Assembly (NCBI GenBank): GCA_020725105.1
Contig: DYFQ01000023.1
Span: 6,337-44,197, forward strand
Direction of reading: 5' to 3'
Origin: Symbiobacterium thermophilum
GTDB taxonomy: Bacteria; Bacillota; Sulfobacillia; DYFQ01
DNA: 37,861 nt
A program made the translations under genes and the position numbers. The notes under the pieces are model-generated. The model made no database searches. It saw only the letters and a program-made list of their open reading frames with translations, and was not told the DNA's origin. Within the stretch, counting starts at the first letter, position 1; each line of letters begins with the position of its first letter. Below are positions 3,219-13,389 of the stretch, piece after piece.

Positions 3219-3248
3219 ATTATAGCGGCCTGGACAGGCCGCCATCAA
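3219..3248 (-). promoter_or_regulatory. Promoter of the BFN gene with a palindromic spacer (possible operator or overlapping terminator hairpin)
   Basis: On the minus strand, TTGATG (3248-3243) is followed by 18 nt and a perfect TATAAT (3224-3219). The 18-nt spacer is itself an inverted repeat, GCGGCCTGTCCAGGCCGC, with 7-bp arms and a 4-nt centre. The -35 overlaps the stop codon of the peptidase gene. Predicted start is near 3212, giving a leader of about 43 nt to the GTG at 3169. The palindrome could be an operator, or a hairpin that ends the upstream operon, though no U-tract follows. Confidence 0.6.
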
Positions 3249-4219
3249 CCGGCGCCGGGCTCCGGCACCTCGGGGAACAGGTCGCGGCACGCGGGCAGCC
3301 CGGGCAGCCCCTCGGCCGCCAGGACGGCCCGGCGCACCGCCTCGGCCACCGCCTCGACGGCCGCCGCGCAGAAGACGGCGTCCACGTCAAACCAGGTATG
3401 CACCGGCGAGACGGAAAGGGCCAGGCCGTCGTGGGCCATGACCGCCACCTGCCTGAGCTGGACCCGGTCCAGGGCCACGTCGGTGACCACCGCCACCAGC
3501 GTCGTGTGCTGGGCGGGCCACCCGGCCGCGAGCGCGCTGGCGTCGCTCTCCCGCCGGAGCATGGCCGCGGTGTCCACCAGCCGGCCGGTGACGGGGTTTC
3601 TGGTGCCCGCCAGCAGCCGCTGGGTCCGCCAGTCGCGCACGTCACCGAAGGCGTTGACCACCGCGAGCGCCCCCACCACGGCGCCGTTGTCCAGGTGCAC
3701 GCTCCAGGTGCCCAGACCGCCCCGCATGGCGTGAGCCGGGCCGAACAGTTTGCCAACGGTTGCCCCGGTTCCGGCGCCCACGTTTCCCTCGGCTACCGGA
3801 CCCGCGTCCGCCGCCCGGCAGGCCTCGTAGCCCATGGCTGCGTCCGGCCGGCGGCGGGGATCGCCCACCGCCAGGTCAAAGACGACGGCGGCCGGTACGA
3901 TGGGCACCCGGGCCACCCCGGCGTCAAAACCGATGCCGGCCTCCTCCAGGAAGCGGACGACGCCGGTGGCGGCGTCGAGACCGAAGGCGCTGCCGCCGGT
4001 GAAGAGCAGGGCGTGGATCCGCTCCACCAGCCGTCCCGGAGCCAGGAGGTCCGTCTCGCGGGTCCCGGGCGCGGCGCCCCGGACGTCGCAGGCGCCCACG
4101 GCCCCGGGGTCGCCGGGCTCGGCGGCAAACAGCAGCACGGTGCAGCCGGTCAGGGCCTCGCGGTCGGTGGCGTGGCCCACCCGCACGCCGGCGACGTCGG
4201 TGACGGCTCGATGGGTCAT
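3245..4219 (-). CDS. P1/DmpA family peptidase (peptidase S58, L-aminopeptidase/D-esterase-like)
   Basis: 324 residues, near the usual family length. It starts with the characteristic VTDVAGVRVGHATDREALTGCTVLL, then FTGGSAFGLDAATGVVRFLEE (about 74-93), the GNVGAGTGATVGKL loop (about 145-157) and HTTLVAVVTDVAL (about 238-250). The last block is where these Ntn-fold enzymes self-cleave to expose a Ser or Thr nucleophile; here Thr239 and Thr240 are the candidates. Members release N-terminal amino acids or hydrolyse beta-peptides. The start ATG overlaps the stop of folK-birA as ATGA (4216-4219), so translation is probably coupled. Why a peptidase ends this operon is unclear. No signal peptide is visible, so it is probably cytoplasmic. 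Confidence 0.88.
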   Translation of the reverse strand: MTHRAVTDVAGVRVGHATDREALTGCTVLLFAAEPGDPGAVGACDVRGAAPGTRETDLLAPGRLVERIHALLFTGGSAFGLDAATGVVRFLEEAGIGFDAGVARVPIVPAAVVFDLAVGDPRRRPDAAMGYEACRAADAGPVAEGNVGAGTGATVGKLFGPAHAMRGGLGTWSVHLDNGAVVGALAVVNAFGDVRDWRTQRLLAGTRNPVTGRLVDTAAMLRRESDASALAAGWPAQHTTLVAVVTDVALDRVQLRQVAVMAHDGLALSVSPVHTWFDVDAVFCAAAVEAVAEAVRRAVLAAEGLPGLPACRDLFPEVPEPGAG

Positions 4220-5589
4220 GACGGCTCGCCTCCCGTGGTCGGACTGCCTGCCCCGGCCGAGGACCGGCGCAGGCTCAGCTCTCCCGCTTGCAGGTATCTC
4301 GTTCCCTCGGGCGTGCTCAGGACGGCCCGGCCCGCCCCGTCGACCCCTTCCAGCCGGCCCCGCCACGTCCCGGCCGGGCCGCGCGCCACCACCTCCCGGC
4401 CAGACCAGGCCAGGCGCCGCTGGTAGGCGGCCCGGCACCAACCGAAGCCGGCCTCCAGCCAGGCCCGGTAGCCCTCCTCCAGCCGGTTGAGAAAGGTTCC
4501 GGCCAGCCGGCCGCGGGCGACCGTATCCCCGGTGCGGAGCACCAGGGCGGTGGCGGGGAGGGCCAGCCCGCCGGGCAGGGCGTCGGGCGACACGTTGCAG
4601 TTGACCCCGGTGCCCAGCACGACCCAGCCCTGGTCCGGAGCCCCCTCCACCAGGATCCCCGCCGCCTTGCCCCCGTCTACCAGCAGGTCGTTGGGCCACT
4701 TGATGGCCGGCGAGAGGCCGGTGACCGCCTCCACCGCCTCGGCCAGGGCCACGGCGGCCACCAGCCCCAGTTGCGGCAGGTCCGCGCGGCCGGCAGGTGG
4801 CCGCAGCACCACCGAAAGCCACAGGCCACCGGGGGGCGACACCCAGCCGCGCCCCAGCCGGCCCCGGCCGCGGGTCTGAACCTCGGCCGCGCAGGCTGTC
4901 CCCTCGGGGGCGCCCGCCCGCACCAGGTCGCGGGCCCAGTCATTGGTCGAGCCCACCTCCGGCCGCCAGAGCCACGGGCGCCCCAGCCGGCCGGTGACCT
5001 CGAGCCAGGGACCGACCGCGCCGGCGGTGACGGGCGGGTCGGCCCCCCGGCCGGCCGCGGCGGGTGCCGCCGGGGCCGGCGCGCCGGGGGGCCAGAGGGG
5101 ATCCGCCGCCGGCCGCAGGGCCTGCCCAGGCATGAGGGCGTCCAGGAGTTCACCCACCCGGCGCCCAACCGGCAGCATCAGGCCGGGGTCCAGTTCGGCC
5201 AGGGGGACCAGGACAAACGCCCGCTCGGCCAGGCGCGGGTGGGGAAGCACCAGGTCGGGGCCGGAGACCACCAGGTCACCCGCGAGCAGCAGGTCCAGGT
5301 CCAGGGGGCGGGGCCCCCAGCGGGGACCGCCGGCGTCGCGCCGGCGGCCGAACTCCGCCTCCACCGCCAGGCACTGGCGAAGCAGGGGGTCAAGCTCCGT
5401 CTCCAGTTCGGCCACGGCGTTGTAGAACCACGGCTGGTCGGAAAGGCCCACCGGCGCCGTCTCGTAGACCGCCGAGGTCCGTACCAGCCGGCTTGACGGC
5501 AGCGCCGCCAGCCGGCGGCAGGCCCCGGCCAGGTTGGCCAGGCGGTCGCCAAGGTTGGAACCGAGGCCGACGAAGGCGCGGGCGCTCAT
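4216..5589 (-). CDS. FolK-BirA fusion: HPPK joined to biotin protein ligase
   Basis: One uninterrupted 457-codon frame encodes two enzymes. Residues 1-158 are 6-hydroxymethyl-7,8-dihydropterin pyrophosphokinase: VGLGSNLGDR, TSAVYETAPVG, FYNAVAELET, the signature RWGPRPLDLDLLL (90-102) and LPHPRLAERAFVLVPLAEL. Residues 160-195 are a Pro/Ala/Gly-rich linker. Residues 200-457 are a biotin-[acetyl-CoA carboxylase] ligase: EVGSTNDWAR, the biotinoyl-AMP loop GRGRLGRGW (241-249), KWPNDLLV (297-304), GKAAGILVE and a small C-terminal domain. The N-terminal HTH of regulatory BirA is absent, so the ligase half is monofunctional. I found no ATG, GTG or TTG with a ribosome site between the domains. The start overlaps the folB stop as ATGA, and the stop overlaps the peptidase start. 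In related Clostridia folK and birA are neighbours, which makes a fusion plausible. Confidence 0.9.
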   Translation of the reverse strand: MSARAFVGLGSNLGDRLANLAGACRRLAALPSSRLVRTSAVYETAPVGLSDQPWFYNAVAELETELDPLLRQCLAVEAEFGRRRDAGGPRWGPRPLDLDLLLAGDLVVSGPDLVLPHPRLAERAFVLVPLAELDPGLMLPVGRRVGELLDALMPGQALRPAADPLWPPGAPAPAAPAAAGRGADPPVTAGAVGPWLEVTGRLGRPWLWRPEVGSTNDWARDLVRAGAPEGTACAAEVQTRGRGRLGRGWVSPPGGLWLSVVLRPPAGRADLPQLGLVAAVALAEAVEAVTGLSPAIKWPNDLLVDGGKAAGILVEGAPDQGWVVLGTGVNCNVSPDALPGGLALPATALVLRTGDTVARGRLAGTFLNRLEEGYRAWLEAGFGWCRAAYQRRLAWSGREVVARGPAGTWRGRLEGVDGAGRAVLSTPEGTRYLQAGELSLRRSSAGAGSPTTGGEPS

Positions 5590-5942
5590 GGCCGCTCGAT
5601 TTCCACCGCCACCGTCCGGAACGGGCCGGGGAGGGGCGCCCGGGGCTTGGCCACCCGGACCCGGACCGACTCGGGCCCGAACCGGTCCAGCACGGCGCGG
5701 GCGATGGCTTCCGCCAGCGCCTCCAGGAGCGCCAGCCGGGTTCCCTCCACCACCTGGCGGACGGCGCCGTACACCTCGGCATAGTTCACCGTCCGGCCCA
5801 GGTCGTCGGTGCGGCCGGCCTCGCCCAGGCCGAGCCGCAGTTCCAGATCGACGACAAACGGCTGGGGCCGGGCCCGCTCCTCGGGCAGCGCGCCGTGGGT
5901 CCCGAAGAACTCCAGGCCCTCAAGGAGTAGCCGGTCGCGCAT
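5586..5942 (-). CDS. folB: Dihydroneopterin aldolase
   Basis: 118 residues, the normal size of FolB, which turns 7,8-dihydroneopterin into 6-hydroxymethyl-dihydropterin, the substrate of the HPPK encoded next. Family marks: LEGLEFFGTHGALPEERARPQPFVVDLEL (N-terminal strand with the pterin-site Glu), the LGRTVNYAEVYGAVRQVVEG helix with the conserved Tyr, LLEALAEAIARAVL and VRVRVAKPRAPLPG with the C-terminal Lys. ATG 5942 is preferred because GGGGGAG lies about 8 nt upstream. The in-frame GTG at 5951 directly abuts that site. The ribosome site sits inside a duplicated 28-bp segment shared with the end of folP. The stop overlaps the next ATG by 4 bp. Confidence 0.9.
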   Translation of the reverse strand: MRDRLLLEGLEFFGTHGALPEERARPQPFVVDLELRLGLGEAGRTDDLGRTVNYAEVYGAVRQVVEGTRLALLEALAEAIARAVLDRFGPESVRVRVAKPRAPLPGPFRTVAVEIERP

Positions 5943-5946
5943 GTCC

Positions 5947-6009
5947 TTCACTCCCCCGGGGGCGGCCAGCCCCGCGTGTCGTTCACTCCCCCGCCGGCGG
6001 CCAGCCCCG
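5947..6009. repeat. Imperfect tandem direct repeat at the folP-folB junction
   Basis: A 28-bp unit occurs at 5947-5974 and again at 5982-6009 (period 35 bp), identical except for two adjacent bases. The copy at 5982 encodes the C-terminus and stop of folP. The copy at 5947 supplies the Shine-Dalgarno sequence and first codons' context of folB. It looks like a recent local duplication that separated two genes which may once have overlapped. Confidence 0.8.
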
Positions 6010-6822
6010 GACGACGGCGTCGGCCATCCGGGCCACCCGCGCCATGGCCTCGACGTCGTGAACCCGGACCACGTCGGCGCCGGCGGCTATCGCCAGGGCG
6101 ACACAGGCGGCGGTGCCCTCCAGGCGCTGGTCGACGGGAAGACCCAGCACGTGGCCGATGGTTCGCTTGCGGGAGGGACCCACCAGGATGGGCCGGCCCA
6201 GCACCCGCAACTCCCCCAGGCGCCTGAGCACCTCCAGGTTGTGGCCGGTGTCCTTGCCAAAGCCCAGCCCCGGGTCGACGATGATCCGGTCGTCGCCGAC
6301 GCCGGCCGCCCGGGCCCGGGCCACGGCGGCCTCCAGCGCCCGCAAGATCTCGCCCATCAGGTCGCCGTAGACCGCCTCTCGCTGGTTGTGCATGACGATG
6401 ACCGGCACCCCGTACCGGGCGACCACCCGGGCCATGCCGGGGTCGGCGGCCAGGCCCCACACGTCGTTCACCAGGCGGGCTCCCCGGCGCAGGGCCGCCT
6501 CGGCCACCTCCGCCTTGTAAGTGTCGATGCTGAGGGGGACGTCGGTCGCCCGGGCCAGCCGCTCCACCACCGGGAGCACCCGCCGCAACTCCTCCCGGGC
6601 CGGGACCGGCGTGGCCCCGGGCCTGGTGGACTCACCGCCCACGTCGATCAGGTCGGCTCCCTGGCGGGCCAGTTCCAGCCCCTGGGCCACCGCCGCTTCG
6701 GGGTCCAGGTACCGCCCGCCGTCGGAAAAGGAGTCGGGCGTCACGTTCAACACGGCCATCACGTAGGTCCGGCTGCCGAAGTGAAAGACCCGGCCGTCCA
6801 CGTCAAGAGGCGGGCTGGCCAC
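5983..6822 (-). CDS. folP: Dihydropteroate synthase
   Basis: 279-residue TIM-barrel enzyme that joins p-aminobenzoate to hydroxymethyl-dihydropterin diphosphate, the step after HPPK and the target of sulfonamides. Visible family blocks: MAVLNVTPDSFSDGG (pyrophosphate loop), ADLIDVGGESTRPGA, LSIDTYKAEVAEAAL, LVNDVWG, VIVMHNQ, IIVDPGLGFGKD (pterin-binding Asp), GRPILVGPSRK (Lys) and the C-terminal VVRVHDVEAM with the Arg-x-His. GTG 6822 is chosen because GGGAGG lies 8 nt upstream; the upstream cyclodeaminase stop is only 4 bp away. All key residues are present, so it should be active. Confidence 0.95.
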   Translation of the reverse strand: MASPPLDVDGRVFHFGSRTYVMAVLNVTPDSFSDGGRYLDPEAAVAQGLELARQGADLIDVGGESTRPGATPVPAREELRRVLPVVERLARATDVPLSIDTYKAEVAEAALRRGARLVNDVWGLAADPGMARVVARYGVPVIVMHNQREAVYGDLMGEILRALEAAVARARAAGVGDDRIIVDPGLGFGKDTGHNLEVLRRLGELRVLGRPILVGPSRKRTIGHVLGLPVDQRLEGTAACVALAIAAGADVVRVHDVEAMARVARMADAVVRGWPPAGE

Positions 6823-6826
6823 CTGG

Positions 6827-7468
6827 CTAGCCTCCCTGCTCCAGGGCCTGGTAAGCCGCGTCCACGGTGGCCAGTTCCCGCTGGATGCCGTCGCCGGCCG
6901 CCTGGTTCTCCAGCCCGGCCAGGTTGACGGCCACGTTGGCCCGGGCGCCGCCATACGCCGCCCGGGCCAGGTAATAACCGGTCCTGGCGTCGGAGGCGGC
7001 GCTGGGGTTGCCCAGCTCAGCCGCCAGCCGGGCGTCGGCCATGACCTGGACCGCCAGCCGGGCGACTTCCAGGGGCGGCCCGGCCGCGCCAACGAGTGCC
7101 CGCTCGACGGCGGCGGCCCGCTCGGACCGCTCCGCGTCGGTGCCCCTGGGGAGCCGGTAGGCCGCCATGACGGCCTCGAAGGCGCGGCTGTCCTCGTCGA
7201 TCAGTTCGAGAAACCGGCTCTGGTGGGCACCGGCGCGGGGCAGCACCGGTTCCAGCCGCGGGCCGACGTCCCTGAACCGCTCGCGCCCGATGGTGAGACG
7301 CAGGACCTTGGCCACCAGGCCGGCGGCCATGGCCCCCGCGGCGGCCGCCGCCGAGCCGCCGCCGGGCACCGGCCTCGCTTCCCCCAGCGCCTGGCAGAAA
7401 TCACCCAGCGGCCGCTGAGGCCAGGCGACGGCATTCGCTGTTTCTGGTACTCCTCTCTCCGGCGTCAT
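6827..7468 (-). CDS. Formiminotetrahydrofolate cyclodeaminase / methenyl-THF cyclohydrolase (FTCD_C family)
   Basis: 213 residues of the all-helical FTCD C-terminal family, which includes the FchA cyclohydrolases of acetogens. Marks: LGDFCQALGEARPVPGGGSAAAAAGAMAAGLVAKVLRLT near the N-terminus (active-site glycine loop), a DEDSRAFEAVMAAYRLPRG-like helix, a central VARLAVQVMADARLAAELGNPSAASDARTGYYLARAA block, and a C-terminal region like that of family members. In the hut context it should remove ammonia from 5-formimino-THF to give 5,10-methenyl-THF. The formiminotransferase half is a separate gene two genes upstream, so the activities that are fused in animal FTCD are split here. ATG 7468 has GGGAGG about 13 nt upstream, a rather long spacing. 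Confidence 0.87.
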   Translation of the reverse strand: MTPERGVPETANAVAWPQRPLGDFCQALGEARPVPGGGSAAAAAGAMAAGLVAKVLRLTIGRERFRDVGPRLEPVLPRAGAHQSRFLELIDEDSRAFEAVMAAYRLPRGTDAERSERAAAVERALVGAAGPPLEVARLAVQVMADARLAAELGNPSAASDARTGYYLARAAYGGARANVAVNLAGLENQAAGDGIQRELATVDAAYQALEQGG

Positions 7469-7489
7469 CAGCAGTCAAGGTCCTCCCTT

Positions 7490-7627
7490 TCACCCGGCCG
7501 CCGGCGTGCAGGCCAGGCGCGTGGCCACCCCGGCGATGGCCCCCAGCAGCAGAAACCAGAGCACCTTCCGGTCATACAGGGGGCTTGGCGGGGGCTTGGC
7601 CGCCTTCCCCTCCTCGTCAGCCGCCAC
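7490..7627 (-). CDS. Small single-pass membrane protein, 45 residues, unknown function
   Basis: A short frame between hutI and the cyclodeaminase gene starting at GTG 7627, with GGGAGG 8 nt upstream; its start lies inside the last codons of hutI (11-bp overlap), as expected of a coupled operon gene. The product has a charged, proline-rich N-terminal part (ADEEGKAAKPPPSPLYDRK) followed by one hydrophobic helix (VLWFLLLGAIAGVATRLA) and a short CTPAAG tail. It fills the gap between the flanking genes almost exactly. I do not recognise the family. A conserved position in related hut operons would support it. Confidence 0.55.
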   Translation of the reverse strand: MAADEEGKAAKPPPSPLYDRKVLWFLLLGAIAGVATRLACTPAAG

Positions 7628-8930
7628 CGTTTGAACCTCCCTCGCGCCCGGCCGCCTGAACCAGGCGGCCCCCGGAAACCACCACCCGCCCTGCCTTGAT
7701 CACCCAGTCCACCCGGTTGGAGCCGAAGTAGTAGGGGATGGCGTCGGCCGACGGCGCATCGAAGGCCACCAGGTCGGCCTGCTTCCCCGGTTCCAGGCTG
7801 CCCACCTTGCCCGCCCGGCCCACGGCGTGGGCGGCGTTGATGGTGGCCGCGCTGATGGCCTCGGCCGGCGTCAGCCCCAGCCCGCGGCAGGCGATACCCA
7901 TCACGTGCACCATGGAGTCGACGGGCGAGGTGCCCGGGTTGTAGTCCGTGGCCAGGGCCACCGGGACCCCGGCCGCCACGAACGCCCGGGCGGGTGCCCA
8001 GCGGCGGGCGCCCAGGGTGAAGCTGGTGCCCGGCAGAAGCACCACCACCACGCCGGCGGCGGCCAGCCTCGGCATCACCTCGGCCGGCGTGTGAATGCAG
8101 TGGTCGGCGCTGGTGGCGCCGAGTTCGGCCGCCAGCGCGGAACCGCCCGAGGGCCCGAGTTCGTCGGCATGCAGCTTGGGCCGGAGCCCCAGCCGCCGGC
8201 CGGCCGCCAGGATCTCGCGGGCGTCGCTCACCGGAAAGACCTCGGTCTCGCAGAAGACGTCGCAGAACTCGGCCAGCCCGGCGACGGCGGGCAGCATGGC
8301 TTCCACCACGTGCCTGACGTAGTCGCTCCGCCGGCCCCGGAACTCGGGAGGGACGGCATGCGCCGCCAGAAAGGTAGGCACCAGGTCCACCGGGTGGCTT
8401 CGGTCAAGGTTGGCGACGACCCGCAGTTGCTTCACCTCGTCGGCCAGGGTCAGGCCGTAGCCACTCTTGGCCTCCACCGTGGTGGCGCCGTGAACCAGCA
8501 TCCGGTCAAGCGCGGCCCGGGCGGCCACTTCCAGGCTCGCGGCCGACGCCGCCCTGGTGGCCGCCACCGTGGCCAGGATACCCCCTCCGGCCGCCAGGAT
8601 CTCCAGGTACGACCGGCCCTGCAACCGCTGGACGAACTCGCCCTCCCGGCTGCCGGCGTGGACCAGGTGGGTGTGGGGGTCCACCAGTCCCGGGAGCACC
8701 ACCCGGCCGCTGGCGTCCAGGACCCGGGTGTCGGGGCCGGGGGGGAAATCCGCCAGCACGCGGTCGGTGGGCCCCACGGCCAGGATGGTGTCGCCGGCGA
8801 CGGCCACCGCCCCGTCTCGGATCCGGCCCGGGTCGGCCAGGGCAGAACCGGTTCTGGGCGTCCGGCTCGAGCCCGCCACGGTACACAGTTCGGTGGCGTG
8901 GGTGACCAGCAGGGTTGGCGGGGGCGTCAC
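7617..8930 (-). CDS. hutI: Imidazolonepropionase
   Basis: 437 residues, amidohydrolase superfamily. Converts 4-imidazolone-5-propanoate to N-formimino-L-glutamate, third step of histidine breakdown. Marks: the metal site DPHTHLVHAGSREGEF, the substrate-binding GRSYLEILAAGGGILATVAATR block, VEAKSGYGLTLADEVKQL, TFLAAHAVPPEFRGR (metal His), KLHADELGPSGGSALAAELGATSADHC (metal His) and ALATDYNPGTSP (catalytic Asp). All family residues I can identify are present. GTG 8930 overlaps the ftcD stop as GTGA and has GGGGGAGG about 10 nt upstream. The 3' end overlaps the start of the small membrane gene. Confidence 0.95.
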   Translation of the reverse strand: MTPPPTLLVTHATELCTVAGSSRTPRTGSALADPGRIRDGAVAVAGDTILAVGPTDRVLADFPPGPDTRVLDASGRVVLPGLVDPHTHLVHAGSREGEFVQRLQGRSYLEILAAGGGILATVAATRAASAASLEVAARAALDRMLVHGATTVEAKSGYGLTLADEVKQLRVVANLDRSHPVDLVPTFLAAHAVPPEFRGRRSDYVRHVVEAMLPAVAGLAEFCDVFCETEVFPVSDAREILAAGRRLGLRPKLHADELGPSGGSALAAELGATSADHCIHTPAEVMPRLAAAGVVVVLLPGTSFTLGARRWAPARAFVAAGVPVALATDYNPGTSPVDSMVHVMGIACRGLGLTPAEAISAATINAAHAVGRAGKVGSLEPGKQADLVAFDAPSADAIPYYFGSNRVDWVIKAGRVVVSGGRLVQAAGREGGSNGGG

Positions 8931-9883
8931 CGGCCGGGTGCCTCCCCCGACCCTCCGGTCCCCGTGCCTTCCGCCCCGGCCCGCAGCGCCTCCAGCAGGC
9001 GCAGCTCAAGCACCTGATCGTCGCGGAAGCCCTCAAGCCCGAGATAGTATCGGGCGGCCTCGATCAGGGCGGCGGCCGGCACCAGCCCCACCACCTCGGA
9101 GCCGATGACCGGCACCCCGTGGCGGCGGGCCTCGACCCGGACCAGTTCCACCGCGCGGTAGATGGGGGTCGCTTCGGTGTCCACCAGGTTCATCGACACC
9201 TGCGCGATGCCCCGATCTCCCAGCCGGAGACCCAGGGCCTTGACGTTCACCAGGCCGCCCGAGGAACCCCGCACGGCCCGGGCAATGGCCCGGGCCAGCT
9301 TGACGTCGCCGGTGCCCAGGTTCACGTTGTACGCCACCAGGGGCTTCCGGGCGCCCACCACCGTCGCGCCGGCGGTGGGATGCACGGCCGGGGGGCCGAA
9401 GTCGGGCCGGCGCTCGGGGGTGGCGATGGTCTCCCGCAGGGCCTCGAACTCGCCGCGGCGGATGTCGGCCAGGTTCCTGCGGTCGGGCCGGGTGGCCGCC
9501 GCCTCGTAGAGGTACACCGGAATGTTCAGTTCGCTGGCGATCCGCCGACCGAGTTCCCGGGCCAGGGCCACCGCGTCGGCCATCTCCAGCCCGAAAAGGG
9601 GCACGAAGGGGATGACGTCGGTGGCGCCGATCCTGGGGTGCTCGCCCTGGTGCCGGGTGAGGTCGATCAGGTCCCTGGCCCTGGCGGTGGCCCGGAAGGC
9701 CGCCTCGGCCGCCGCCCGGGGCTCCCCGACAAAGGTGACGACGCACCGGTTGTGGTCGGGGTCCCGGTGGACGTCGAGCACCTGGACCCCCGGCACCTCG
9801 CGGACGGCCGCCGCCAGGGCCTCGATGACCTCGGCGCGCCGCCCCTCGGAGAAGTTGGGCACACACTCGACCAGCGCGGGCAC
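8927..9883 (-). CDS. ftcD: Glutamate formiminotransferase (FTCD N-terminal-type)
   Basis: 318 residues covering the two formiminotransferase subdomains only. Marks: LVECVPNFSEGRRAEVIEAL at the N-terminus, DVHRDPDHNRCVVTFVGEP, the HQGEHPRIGATDVIPFVPL folate-site block, PVYLYEAAATRPDRRNLADIRRGEFE, PTAGATVVGARKPLVAYNVNL and GIAQVSMNLVDTEATPIYR. It transfers the formimino group of formiminoglutamate to tetrahydrofolate, leaving glutamate. GTG 9883 is preferred because GGGAGG is 8 nt upstream; an in-frame GTG at 9892 overlaps the hutU stop (GTGA) but touches the ribosome site itself. The cyclodeaminase half is encoded separately at 6827-7468. Confidence 0.93.
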   Translation of the reverse strand: MPALVECVPNFSEGRRAEVIEALAAAVREVPGVQVLDVHRDPDHNRCVVTFVGEPRAAAEAAFRATARARDLIDLTRHQGEHPRIGATDVIPFVPLFGLEMADAVALARELGRRIASELNIPVYLYEAAATRPDRRNLADIRRGEFEALRETIATPERRPDFGPPAVHPTAGATVVGARKPLVAYNVNLGTGDVKLARAIARAVRGSSGGLVNVKALGLRLGDRGIAQVSMNLVDTEATPIYRAVELVRVEARRHGVPVIGSEVVGLVPAAALIEAARYYLGLEGFRDDQVLELRLLEALRAGAEGTGTGGSGEAPGR

Positions 9884-9888
9884 GGCCT

Positions 9889-11583
9889 TCACCTCCCGGC
9901 GCGCCCGGCGGGCCCGCCGGGCGCGGTGCGGGCCATGGGGAGCTTCAGCCCGTGGCGCCGGGCGGCGGCCAGCGCCTCGGGGTACCCGGCGTCGGCGTGG
10001 CGCATGATGCCGGTGCCGGGGTCCGTGGTGAGCACCCGCTCCAGCCGGGCCCCGCCGTCGGCGGTGCCGTCGGCCACCACCACCATGCCCGCGTGCAGCG
10101 AGTAGCCGATGCCCACCCCGCCGCCGTGGTGCACCGCGACCCAGGTAGCGCCGGCGGCCGTGTTCACCAGCGCGTTCAGCACCGGCCAGTCGGCGATGGC
10201 GTCGGAGCCGTCCCGCATGCCCTCGGTCTCCCGGTACGGCGAGGCGACCGACCCGGCGTCCAGGTGGTCCCGGCCGATGACGATGGGCGCCCGTAACTCG
10301 CCCCGCCGGACCAGGTCGTTGAAGGTGCCGCCGATCCTGGCCCGCTCCCCGTAGCCTAACCAGCAGATGCGGGCCGGCAGTCCCTGAAACGGCACCTTTT
10401 CCCGGGCCAGCCTGATCCAGCGCACCAGCGGCTCGTTGTCGGCCAGCTCGTCCAGGATCACCTGGTCGGTGCGGTGGATGTCCGCCGGGTCCCCCGAGAG
10501 GGCCACCCAGCGGAAGGGGCCCCTGCCCTCGCAGAAGAGGGGCCGGATGTAGGCGGGCACGAACCCCGGGTAGGAGAAGGCGTCGGCGACCCCCGCCCGG
10601 TGGGCCTGGGCCCGGAGGTTGTTGCCGTAGTCGAAGACCACCGCCCCCCGGGCCCGGAAGTCGACCATGGCCTGGCAGTGGGCGGCCATCGACGCCATGG
10701 CCCGGGCCGCGTAGTCCCGGGGATCCTCCCGCCGCAGGGCGTCGGCCTCCGGGACCGACAGGCCGGCCGGGACGTACGACAGGGGGTCGTGGGCGGGGGT
10801 CTGGTCGGTGACCACGTCCGGTACCAGGCCCCGGCGCACGAGTTCGGGATAGACGTCGGCCGCGTTGCCCAGCAGGCCCACCGAAAGGGCGGTGCCACGC
10901 GAACGGGCGTCGTCCACCAGACGCAGGGCCTCGTCCAGGTCGCGGGTCATGGCGTCGCAGAAGCCCCGGTCAAGGCGGCGGCGGAGCCGCCGTTCGTCGA
11001 CCTCCACCACCAGCGCGACCCCTTCGTTCATCGTGATGGCCAGGGGCTGGGCGCCGCCCATGCCTCCCAGGCCGGCCGAGAGCACCCACCGGCCTTTCAG
11101 GCTCCCGCCGAAGTGCCGGCGGGCCGCGGCGGCCAGGGTCTCGTAGGTGCCCTGGATGATCCCCTGGGTGCCGATGTAGATCCAGCTCCCGGCGGTCATC
11201 TGGCCGTACATGGTGAGGCCCTGCCGTTCGAGTTCCCAGAAGGTCTCCCAGTTGGCCCAGGCGGGAACCAGCAGGCTGTTGGCGATGAGCACCCGGGGCG
11301 CCCACGGGTGGGTCCGGAACACCCCGACCGGCTTTCCCGACTGGACCAGGAGGGTCTCGTCACCCTCCAGGTCCCTGAGGGCCGACACCAGGGCACCGAA
11401 GGCCTCCCAGTCGCGGGCGGCCCGTCCGGTGCCACCGTAGACGACGAGTTCGTCGGGCTTCTCCGCCACCTCGGGATCCAGGTTGTTCAGGAGCATCCGG
11501 AGGGCGGCCTCCTGGGGCCAGCCCTTACACGAGAGGCTGGTTCCCCGGGGCGCCCTGACCGGTCCGGAGGGCCGGTTCGACAC
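9889..11583 (-). CDS. hutU: Urocanate hydratase (urocanase)
   Basis: 564 residues, close to the usual 550-560. The enzyme adds water to urocanate with NAD+ as a tightly bound electrophile. Marks: [32 protein letters not shown] near the N-terminus, [23 protein letters not shown], the NAD-binding [64 protein letters not shown] with the conserved Cys, and [26 protein letters not shown] 11583 is chosen because GGGGAGG lies 8 nt upstream; the longer frame from 11619 adds an unsupported N-terminal extension. It sits 57 bp after hutH. Confidence 0.95.
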
Positions 11584-11640
11584 CGGCGTCACCTCCCCGA
11601 CGGGGTCTGGGTCCAGCATCCACGGCTCGCGGAGTCTGGT

Positions 11641-13179
11641 TCAGTCGAGGGGCCCCACGGCGGCCTCCGCGGCCGCCAGGACCCGGCCTTCAAGCACCAG
11701 CCGCCCGGCCGCCTCCAGGTCGGGCCCCAGCTCGCGGTCGGCGTCAAGGAAGGCCACCCGCTCGCGGAAGGCCCGGTAGGCGGCGAGCGTCCCCTTGCCC
11801 AGCCAGGCCTCGAGACCCTTGGGATAGCGCAGGTCCAGGGCCTGGCAGGCGCAGAGGAGTTCGATGCCCACCAGGTGGGCCAGGTTTCTCACGGCGTCGC
11901 GGGCCTTGCGCGCCGCCGCGGCCCCCATGGACACGTGGTCTTCCTGGTTCGCGGAGACGGGGATCGAGTCCACGCTGGCCGGGGCCGCCAGGAGCTTGTT
12001 CTCGGCCGCCAGGGCGGCCGCGGTGTACTGGGCCAGCATGAGCCCGGAGTGCAGCCCGCCCCGGGGCACCAGGAACGGGGGCAGCCCGGACAGTTCCGGG
12101 TTGGTCAGGCGGTCCACGCGGCGTTCCACCATGTTGCCGAGCCCGGCCAGGGCCACCGCCAGCAAGTCCAGGGCGACCGCCACGGGCTGGCCGTGAAAGT
12201 TCCCGCCCGACAGCACCACCCCGGCCTCGGGGAAGAGCAGCGGGTTGTCGGTGGCCGCGTTGATCTCACGCTCGAGACTCACGGCGGTGAAGGCCAGCGC
12301 GTCGCGAACCGCCCCGTGCACCTGCGGGACGCACCGCAGGGAGTAGGGGTCCTGGACCCGCAACTCCCCCGGCCGGCTCACCGACCGGCTCCCCTCCAGC
12401 AGCCGCCGGAGGTTGGAAGCCACGGCCGTCTGGCCCGGGTGGGGCCGGACGGCGTGGAGCCGGGGGTCGTACGCGGCGGCGATGCCTCGCCAGGCCTCGG
12501 CGGTGAGGGCGGCGGCCACGTCGGCGGTCCGGCGTACCACCCCGGCGTCCCAGGCCGCCAGGCCGCCCACGGCGGTCATGAACTGGGTGCCGTTGATCAG
12601 CGCCAGTCCCTCCTTGGCCTCGAGGGAAACGGGCGCCAGCCCCACCTCGGCCAGGGCCCGGCCGCCCGGCAGGCGGCGGTCGCCGACCCATGCCTCGCCG
12701 GCGCCGACGAGGACCAGGGCCATGTGGGCCAGGGGCTGCAGATCACCCGACGCCCCCAGCGACCCCTGCTCGGGGACGACCGGGCACACGTCACGGTTGA
12801 CCAGTTCCAGGAGATGCTCGACGAGTTCCGGCCGTACGCCCGAGTGCCCCCGGGCCAGCGCGTTGGCCCGCAGGAGCACCAGCGCCCGGGCGGCGTCTCT
12901 GTCCATCGGCCGGCCGACGCCCGCCGCGTGGCTTGCCAGGAGGTTGTGCTGCAGTTCGCGGCTCTCCTCGGCCGAGATGACCACCTCGGCCAGCCGGCCG
13001 ACGCCGGTGGTGATGCCGTAGACCGGCTCCCCGGCGGCCACCAGGGTCGTCACCTGGTCGCGTGAGCGCGCCACCGCGTCCCGGGCGGCCGGCGCCAGCC
13101 GGGCGGGGACCCGGCCGCGGGCCACGGCCACGACCCCGGCCAGGGTGAGCGATTGACCGTCTACCCAGACGACGTCCAT
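11641..13179 (-). CDS. hutH: Histidine ammonia-lyase
   Basis: 512 residues. The first enzyme of histidine breakdown, making urocanate and ammonia with the self-formed MIO cofactor. The MIO triad Ala-Ser-Gly is at 143-145 in PEQGSLGASGDLQPLAHM. Other marks: VYGITTGVGRLAEVVIS (with the catalytic Tyr), QHNLLASHAAGVG, LRANALARGHSGVRPEL, NGTQFMTA, ATDNPLLFPE, SGGNFHGQPVA and a C-terminal PVSANQEDHVSMG. ATG 13179 matches where relatives begin (VWVDGQSLT aligns with the family's VTLDGSSLT). Its AAAGGAGG is only 2 nt away, so the in-frame GTG at 13203 remains possible. It leads the hut-fol gene run. Confidence 0.95.
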   Translation of the reverse strand: MDVVWVDGQSLTLAGVVAVARGRVPARLAPAARDAVARSRDQVTTLVAAGEPVYGITTGVGRLAEVVISAEESRELQHNLLASHAAGVGRPMDRDAARALVLLRANALARGHSGVRPELVEHLLELVNRDVCPVVPEQGSLGASGDLQPLAHMALVLVGAGEAWVGDRRLPGGRALAEVGLAPVSLEAKEGLALINGTQFMTAVGGLAAWDAGVVRRTADVAAALTAEAWRGIAAAYDPRLHAVRPHPGQTAVASNLRRLLEGSRSVSRPGELRVQDPYSLRCVPQVHGAVRDALAFTAVSLEREINAATDNPLLFPEAGVVLSGGNFHGQPVAVALDLLAVALAGLGNMVERRVDRLTNPELSGLPPFLVPRGGLHSGLMLAQYTAAALAAENKLLAAPASVDSIPVSANQEDHVSMGAAAARKARDAVRNLAHLVGIELLCACQALDLRYPKGLEAWLGKGTLAAYRAFRERVAFLDADRELGPDLEAAGRLVLEGRVLAAAEAAVGPLD

Positions 13180-13389
13180 GGCCTCCTTTGACCGGGCGGC
13201 CACCCCCTTCAGGTCAAGGGAATCCGCCCGGCCCCCTTAGCCTTCCCGCTGGGCCAGGGGATTCCTGCCGCGCCCCTCGGAGGGAAGGGGCCGAGACGGT
13301 GGTGCTGGTCAGCACCGGCCCGCGACTCACGCGGGCGGAGGTCGTCCAGGTCGGGGTTCGCCGGAGCCAGTGGTGGGCTGACGCCCGGC
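13180..13389 (-). other. Intergenic region between the MFS gene and hutH; no clear promoter seen
   Basis: About 210 bp of very GC-rich sequence. Two short inverted repeats lie side by side at 13302-13337: GGTGCT/AGCACC with a 4-nt loop and GCCCGCG/CGCGGGC with a 5-nt loop; neither is followed by a T-run. A third, GCCCCT/AGGGGC, lies closer to hutH. The hut promoter would be expected here, but I could not find good -35/-10 hexamers. Confidence 0.4.

Follow-up and report, generated by a model that had tools for sequence, protein, structure and literature searches.

Enzymes of folate synthesis have been described as fused to one another, as in the FolK-FolP and FolB-FolK bifunctional enzymes (e.g., PDB 3mcm and 2cg8), and the FolB-FolK fusion of Bifidobacterium longum has been recorded together with other folate fusions (PMC1971073). 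Biotin protein ligases (BPLs) are placed in class I when they lack an N-terminal HTH (PMC3048393). A ligase joined to an enzyme of another cofactor's pathway is known from the BirA/type III pantothenate kinase protein (NF009862, PRK13325). For B vitamins, 131 fusions have been compiled (PMC4921024), and the tables of that compilation may list FolK-BirA, a fusion for which we found no description in the literature searched. Here we analyse such a fusion, encoded in a 37,861-nucleotide stretch of DNA that we call the window; among the NCBIfam models matched by the protein, none stands for the combination of FolK and BirA.

The fusion gene and its surroundings

The folK-birA fusion gene occupies positions 4216-5589 of the minus strand, from an ATG at 5589 to a TGA at 4218-4216, and encodes 457 amino acids in one frame. 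Residues 1-167 (5089-5589) make up the HPPK (FolK) domain together with the native tail at its C-terminus, as delimited by Pfam, an AlphaFold2 model and the FolK ends of relatives. The Pfam HPPK profile PF01288 is matched over its full length (1-116 of 116) by residues 6-135 (2.1e-35, 122 bits against a cut-off of 25.7), and the NCBIfam folK model TIGR01498 gives 130 bits (4.5e-38, cut-off 54.1). A Pro/Ala/Gly-rich linker follows at residues 168-198 (4996-5088), delimited by the frame scan and predicted by AlphaFold2 to be disordered. The remainder, residues 199-457 (4219-4995), is a biotin protein ligase according to Pfam, to sequence and fold matches and to the NCBIfam birA_ligase model (151 bits against a cut-off of 83.1, 2.9e-44). 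Its catalytic domain PF03099 (BPL_LplA_LipB; residues 215-318, 4636-4947; 6.8e-17) carries the motifs STN, QTRGRGRLGRGW, KWPND and GGKAAGIL, and is followed by BPL_C, PF02237 (residues 396-441, 4267-4404; 1.1e-5), both matches being above cut-off. Pfam found no HTH in the protein, such as the N-terminal one of class II BirA, and since the 31-residue linker is also too short for this domain, we take it to be absent. With PF03099, PF02237 and the ligase motifs but no HTH, the C-terminal half is, judged by its sequence, a class I BPL.

The AlphaFold2 model contains two confident domains, with a mean pLDDT of 85 and values below 50 only at residues 172-194 and in the C-terminal tail (446-457). Both halves match in sequence the proteins of solved HPPK and BPL structures, and the ligase half matches the BPLs of Pyrococcus, Aquifex and Mycobacterium in fold comparison. 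The last strand of the HPPK domain spans residues 158-160 in the model, and many of the separate FolKs of class relatives end in a similar short Trp-containing tail, so the native FolK end probably lies near W166-P167. When 24 fused proteins are aligned, positions that match the known active sites do not vary in either half. In the HPPK half these include R82, R94, D97, D99, H117 and R123, which by E. coli numbering correspond to the catalytic Asp pair, Arg and His residues of HPPK. In the BPL half they include S214, T215, Q238, G241, G243, K297, W298, P299, N300 and D301, and the biotin/ATP-site motifs GRGR and KWPND are present, most of their positions without variation. The original prediction, according to which FolK is joined to a BirA lacking the HTH through a Pro/Ala/Gly linker in a single frame, with catalytic signatures kept in both halves, is borne out by the 457-codon frame with its domain matches, by the Pfam search for an HTH and by these invariant residues.

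The gene order on the minus strand is folP-folB-folK::birA-S58-BFN. The dihydropteroate synthase gene folP (5983-6795; Pfam Pterin_bind, 1.2e-82) has an uncertain start codon, its longest open reading frame extending to 7092 and overlapping a gene at 6827-7468. The stop of folB (dihydroneopterin aldolase, 5586-5951; Pfam FolB, 5.2e-37) and the start of the fusion gene share an ATGA at 5586-5589, and another ATGA at 4216-4219 joins the stop of the fusion gene to the start of an S58 (DmpA/P1-type) peptidase family gene (3245-4219; Pfam Peptidase_S58, 3.8e-40). A gene of this peptidase family adjoins folK/birA in several class members (L191, L192, L193, L194, L198, L199). A series of histidine-degradation-like genes (6827-13203, likewise on the minus strand) immediately precedes folP-folB-folK::birA, with hutH- and hutU-like frames recognised by reading and FTCD_N/FTCD, a HutI-like amidohydrolase and FTCD_C by Pfam; genes of folate-dependent catabolism thus adjoin those of folate synthesis in the window.

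The source genome (2.74 Mb, 97% complete) encodes a single HPPK, that of the fusion gene. Two further PF03099 genes are present, similar to models of lipoate ligase and octanoyl transferase, which leaves the fusion as the only biotin ligase found; another locus encodes a biotin carrier protein with the motif EAMKM. We looked in the genome for a second FolK or BPL that would make one half redundant and found none; given the single copies and the carrier, both halves are expected to be needed.

Occurrence and origin of the fusion

The FolK-BirA fusion is recurrent, not a singleton. Of 154 class genomes, 20 from 8 families, including that of the window, have FolK and BPL in a single frame (G000, G005, G007, G011, G033, G050, G075, G087, G090, G091, G093, G094, G108, G109, G110, G115, G135, G136, G137 and G139, the gene of G050 being truncated at the 5' end). 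Among them are a single-contig genome, G108, and Sulfobacillus benefaciens AMDSBA4 (L046), of which G135 appears to be the same record. Two further families of the phylum carry the fusion as well, f72 in all 3 genomes and f96 in the majority. None was found at E <= 1e-80 in 301 Chloroflexota genomes centred on a Dehalococcoidia record, and 296 Actinomycetota genomes centred on a Thermoleophilia record yielded one in-frame pair, G941, with a TAG between the genes. One genome, G343 (81% complete), has two copies of the fused gene, on contigs C173 and C88. In genus g136 of f96, where fused and split folK/birA states occur side by side, FolK is longer by some 30 residues inserted close to position 111 of the profile (L175/G328; G352, G273); L175 (G328) was left out as evidence because it has no standard start near the FolK domain.

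Class members with separate genes at one locus mostly have the order folP-folB-folK-birA, which confirms the adjacency of folK and birA within this class. The junction is an ATGA overlap in G088, G089, G114 and G126, and in G048 the ribosome site and ATG of birA lie inside folK. In G124 and G125 the two genes share a frame and only one TAA stands between them, followed by a ribosome site and a TTG start; this arrangement (L138 and L141, reverse strand, around position 1984) might be an intermediate of fusion or the outcome of its reversal. Losing such a stop/start overlap through a small indel or the loss of a stop is enough to produce a fusion. Relatives in which the genes are separate and the start overlaps had been named in advance as grounds for refutation; they do exist, but they reveal the source of the fusion instead of refuting it.

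These data bear on the question of whether the genes fused repeatedly or fused once, in a distant ancestor, and were split again in many lineages. A single ancient event would fit the domain order, identical everywhere, as well as the single TAA of G124 and G125. Yet the grouping of all fused sequences in one clade is rejected for the BirA halves (AU test, p 0.005) and for the FolK halves (p 0.012), split genes commonly have ordinary ATGA or ribosome-site junctions, and the fusions differ in the presence of an HTH and have unlike linkers. We therefore regard a single ancient fusion as unlikely. As neither the fused FolKs nor the fused ligases group into a single clade, the folK-birA junction has probably been fused repeatedly, and several events are likely from the sequences compared. 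Their number is uncertain because the trees are weakly supported: parsimony requires 9 changes between fused and split states in each tree, of which well-supported branches force only 2 (BirA) and 1 (FolK).

Products, variants and reading frame

We consider it very probable that two operon neighbours have fused to give a tethered bifunctional enzyme. The fusion would have arisen in a folP-folB-folK-birA operon, when one small indel or stop loss removed the folK stop and birA start at their short overlap, the HTH being lost in this lineage. The product would be a single chain of about 457 residues carrying HPPK and a class I BPL on a flexible linker. Its N-terminal HPPK would transfer pyrophosphate from ATP to 6-hydroxymethyl-7,8-dihydropterin, and its C-terminal BPL would make biotinyl-AMP and biotinylate the carrier protein of biotin-dependent carboxylases. 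We infer from the sequence that both activities are present, and the two folded domains probably work independently; channelling is not expected, because ATP is the only substrate common to the two enzymes. Both essential cofactor steps would depend on one translation start coupled to folB and would be made in a fixed 1:1 ratio. This co-expression may be the benefit of the fusion, or there may be none at all.

A free ligase might also, or even mainly, be made, by use of a non-standard internal start codon or by cleavage of the linker. The predicted disorder of the linker and the two separate proteins of relatives are compatible with this, but the only in-frame standard start shortly before the ligase fold, M153, has no ribosome site and is buried in the end of the HPPK domain, in line with the original prediction that no internal start with a ribosome site exists. 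Other fused lineages, moreover, read through, with linkers evolving as protein: in pairs of fused relatives the dN/dS of the linker is 0.10-0.49 where measurable, and no gap breaks the frame, which argues that the linker is translated. These values apply to the linkers of the relatives, since none of the genomes searched belongs to the family or order of the window's genome. Production of a free ligase is, on this evidence, distinctly improbable.

The fused gene has variants. In G011 (family f12; L031, 1146-2672, plus strand) and G090 (family f38; L136, 1501-3003, plus strand) an HTH (HTH_11) is kept between FolK and the ligase, and other f38 members have linkers of similar length with HTH-like sequence. 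Judged by their domains, these FolK-HTH-BPL proteins tie a BirA of the biotin-repressor type to HPPK. In G016, the genome whose sequence is most similar to the window by both halves, HPPK instead shares its frame with the downstream neighbour NadC, a quinolinate phosphoribosyltransferase with both QRPTase domains, N and C (L044, 4453-3116, minus strand). A separate HTH-BirA gene comes after this apparent second kind of FolK fusion. The C-terminus of FolK seems tolerant of whatever is encoded downstream, and the FolK-NadC protein suggests that fusions at this end favour position over pathway logic.

It is conceivable, and we would be surprised if it proved correct, that the fused chain ties protein biotinylation, and in the HTH forms repression of the biotin operon, to the level or state of the folate enzyme, the junction being a hot spot at which fusion recurs because the joined chain is favoured. 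Very improbable, in our view, is a coupling of folate and biotin status through HPPK, which would serve the ligase, or in HTH-bearing forms the repressor, as a regulatory or localising module. The recurrent fusion of the same junction and the retention of the HTH could be read in favour of such a role, but the two enzymes have ATP alone in common, the same FolK end is joined to NadC in G016, and folK and birA are elsewhere plain operon neighbours, which fits position rather than function.

Between residues 154 and 205 the scan found all three frames free of ATG, GTG and TTG as well as of stop codons, and the linker lacks an ATGA overlap, unlike both ends of the gene. The nearest alternative start/stop pair is a GTGA at residue 146, inside the HPPK domain, whose use would require two indels. 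By a codon-usage score with the neighbouring genes as training set, each 30-codon block spanning the linker comes out best in frame 1, and the values for frames 2 and 3 are negative everywhere. This score, taken together with the linker dN/dS of relatives, leads us to reject a frame left open by chance in GC-rich DNA. As no frame of the linker contains a start, a single base error or indel there cannot yield two ordinary genes; the sequencing error that had been named as a possible refutation could thus not, if single, split the gene. That two overlapping genes lost their junction to an assembly or base error is scarcely credible, despite the GC-rich homopolymers of the linker and the separate, ATGA-overlapping genes of relatives, since such a frameshift is rejected by the start/stop and codon-usage scans and by the recurrence of the fusion in 19 further genomes of the class, the single-contig G108 among them.

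Meaning and comparison with known systems

Tethering of two operon neighbours thus remains our preferred reading, and from the sequences the gene appears to be a recurrent fusion between enzymes of unrelated pathways. That two proteins are encoded by a fused gene is commonly taken as a sign that they act together. Repeated fusion without a common pathway, explained by adjacency and a fragile stop/start overlap, would make FolK-BirA a clean counter-example to this kind of inference. Should selection instead have favoured the fusion, this would indicate an as yet unknown connection between the supply of folate and that of biotin. Gene finders and annotators should in either case be prepared for both essential activities on a single chain and, in some lineages, for a folate enzyme that carries an HTH repressor.

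Among described proteins, the N-terminal half resembles monofunctional HPPK/FolK (PF01288, TIGR01498) in its full-length domain, its catalytic residues and its position just after folP-folB, and differs from it by the added C-terminal biotin ligase. The class I BPLs without HTH of Pyrococcus, Aquifex and M. tuberculosis (PF03099 and PF02237) share the fold, the motifs and the lack of a DNA-binding domain, whereas the window protein adds an N-terminal HPPK. In the FolK-FolP and FolB-FolK enzymes HPPK is likewise part of a fused protein, but there the partners come from the same pathway and here the partner comes from that of another cofactor; folB and folP are separate upstream frames by Pfam, so the protein is neither an HPPK-DHPS nor a DHNA-HPPK. 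The BirA/type III pantothenate kinase protein is alike in joining a ligase to an enzyme from the pathway of a different cofactor. Against its model the window protein scores 65 bits (cut-off 761), with a match to the ligase part only and none to the pantothenate kinase. The two fusions differ in the partner and in the end at which it is attached, the ligase being the N-terminal part of that model and the C-terminal half of FolK-BirA.
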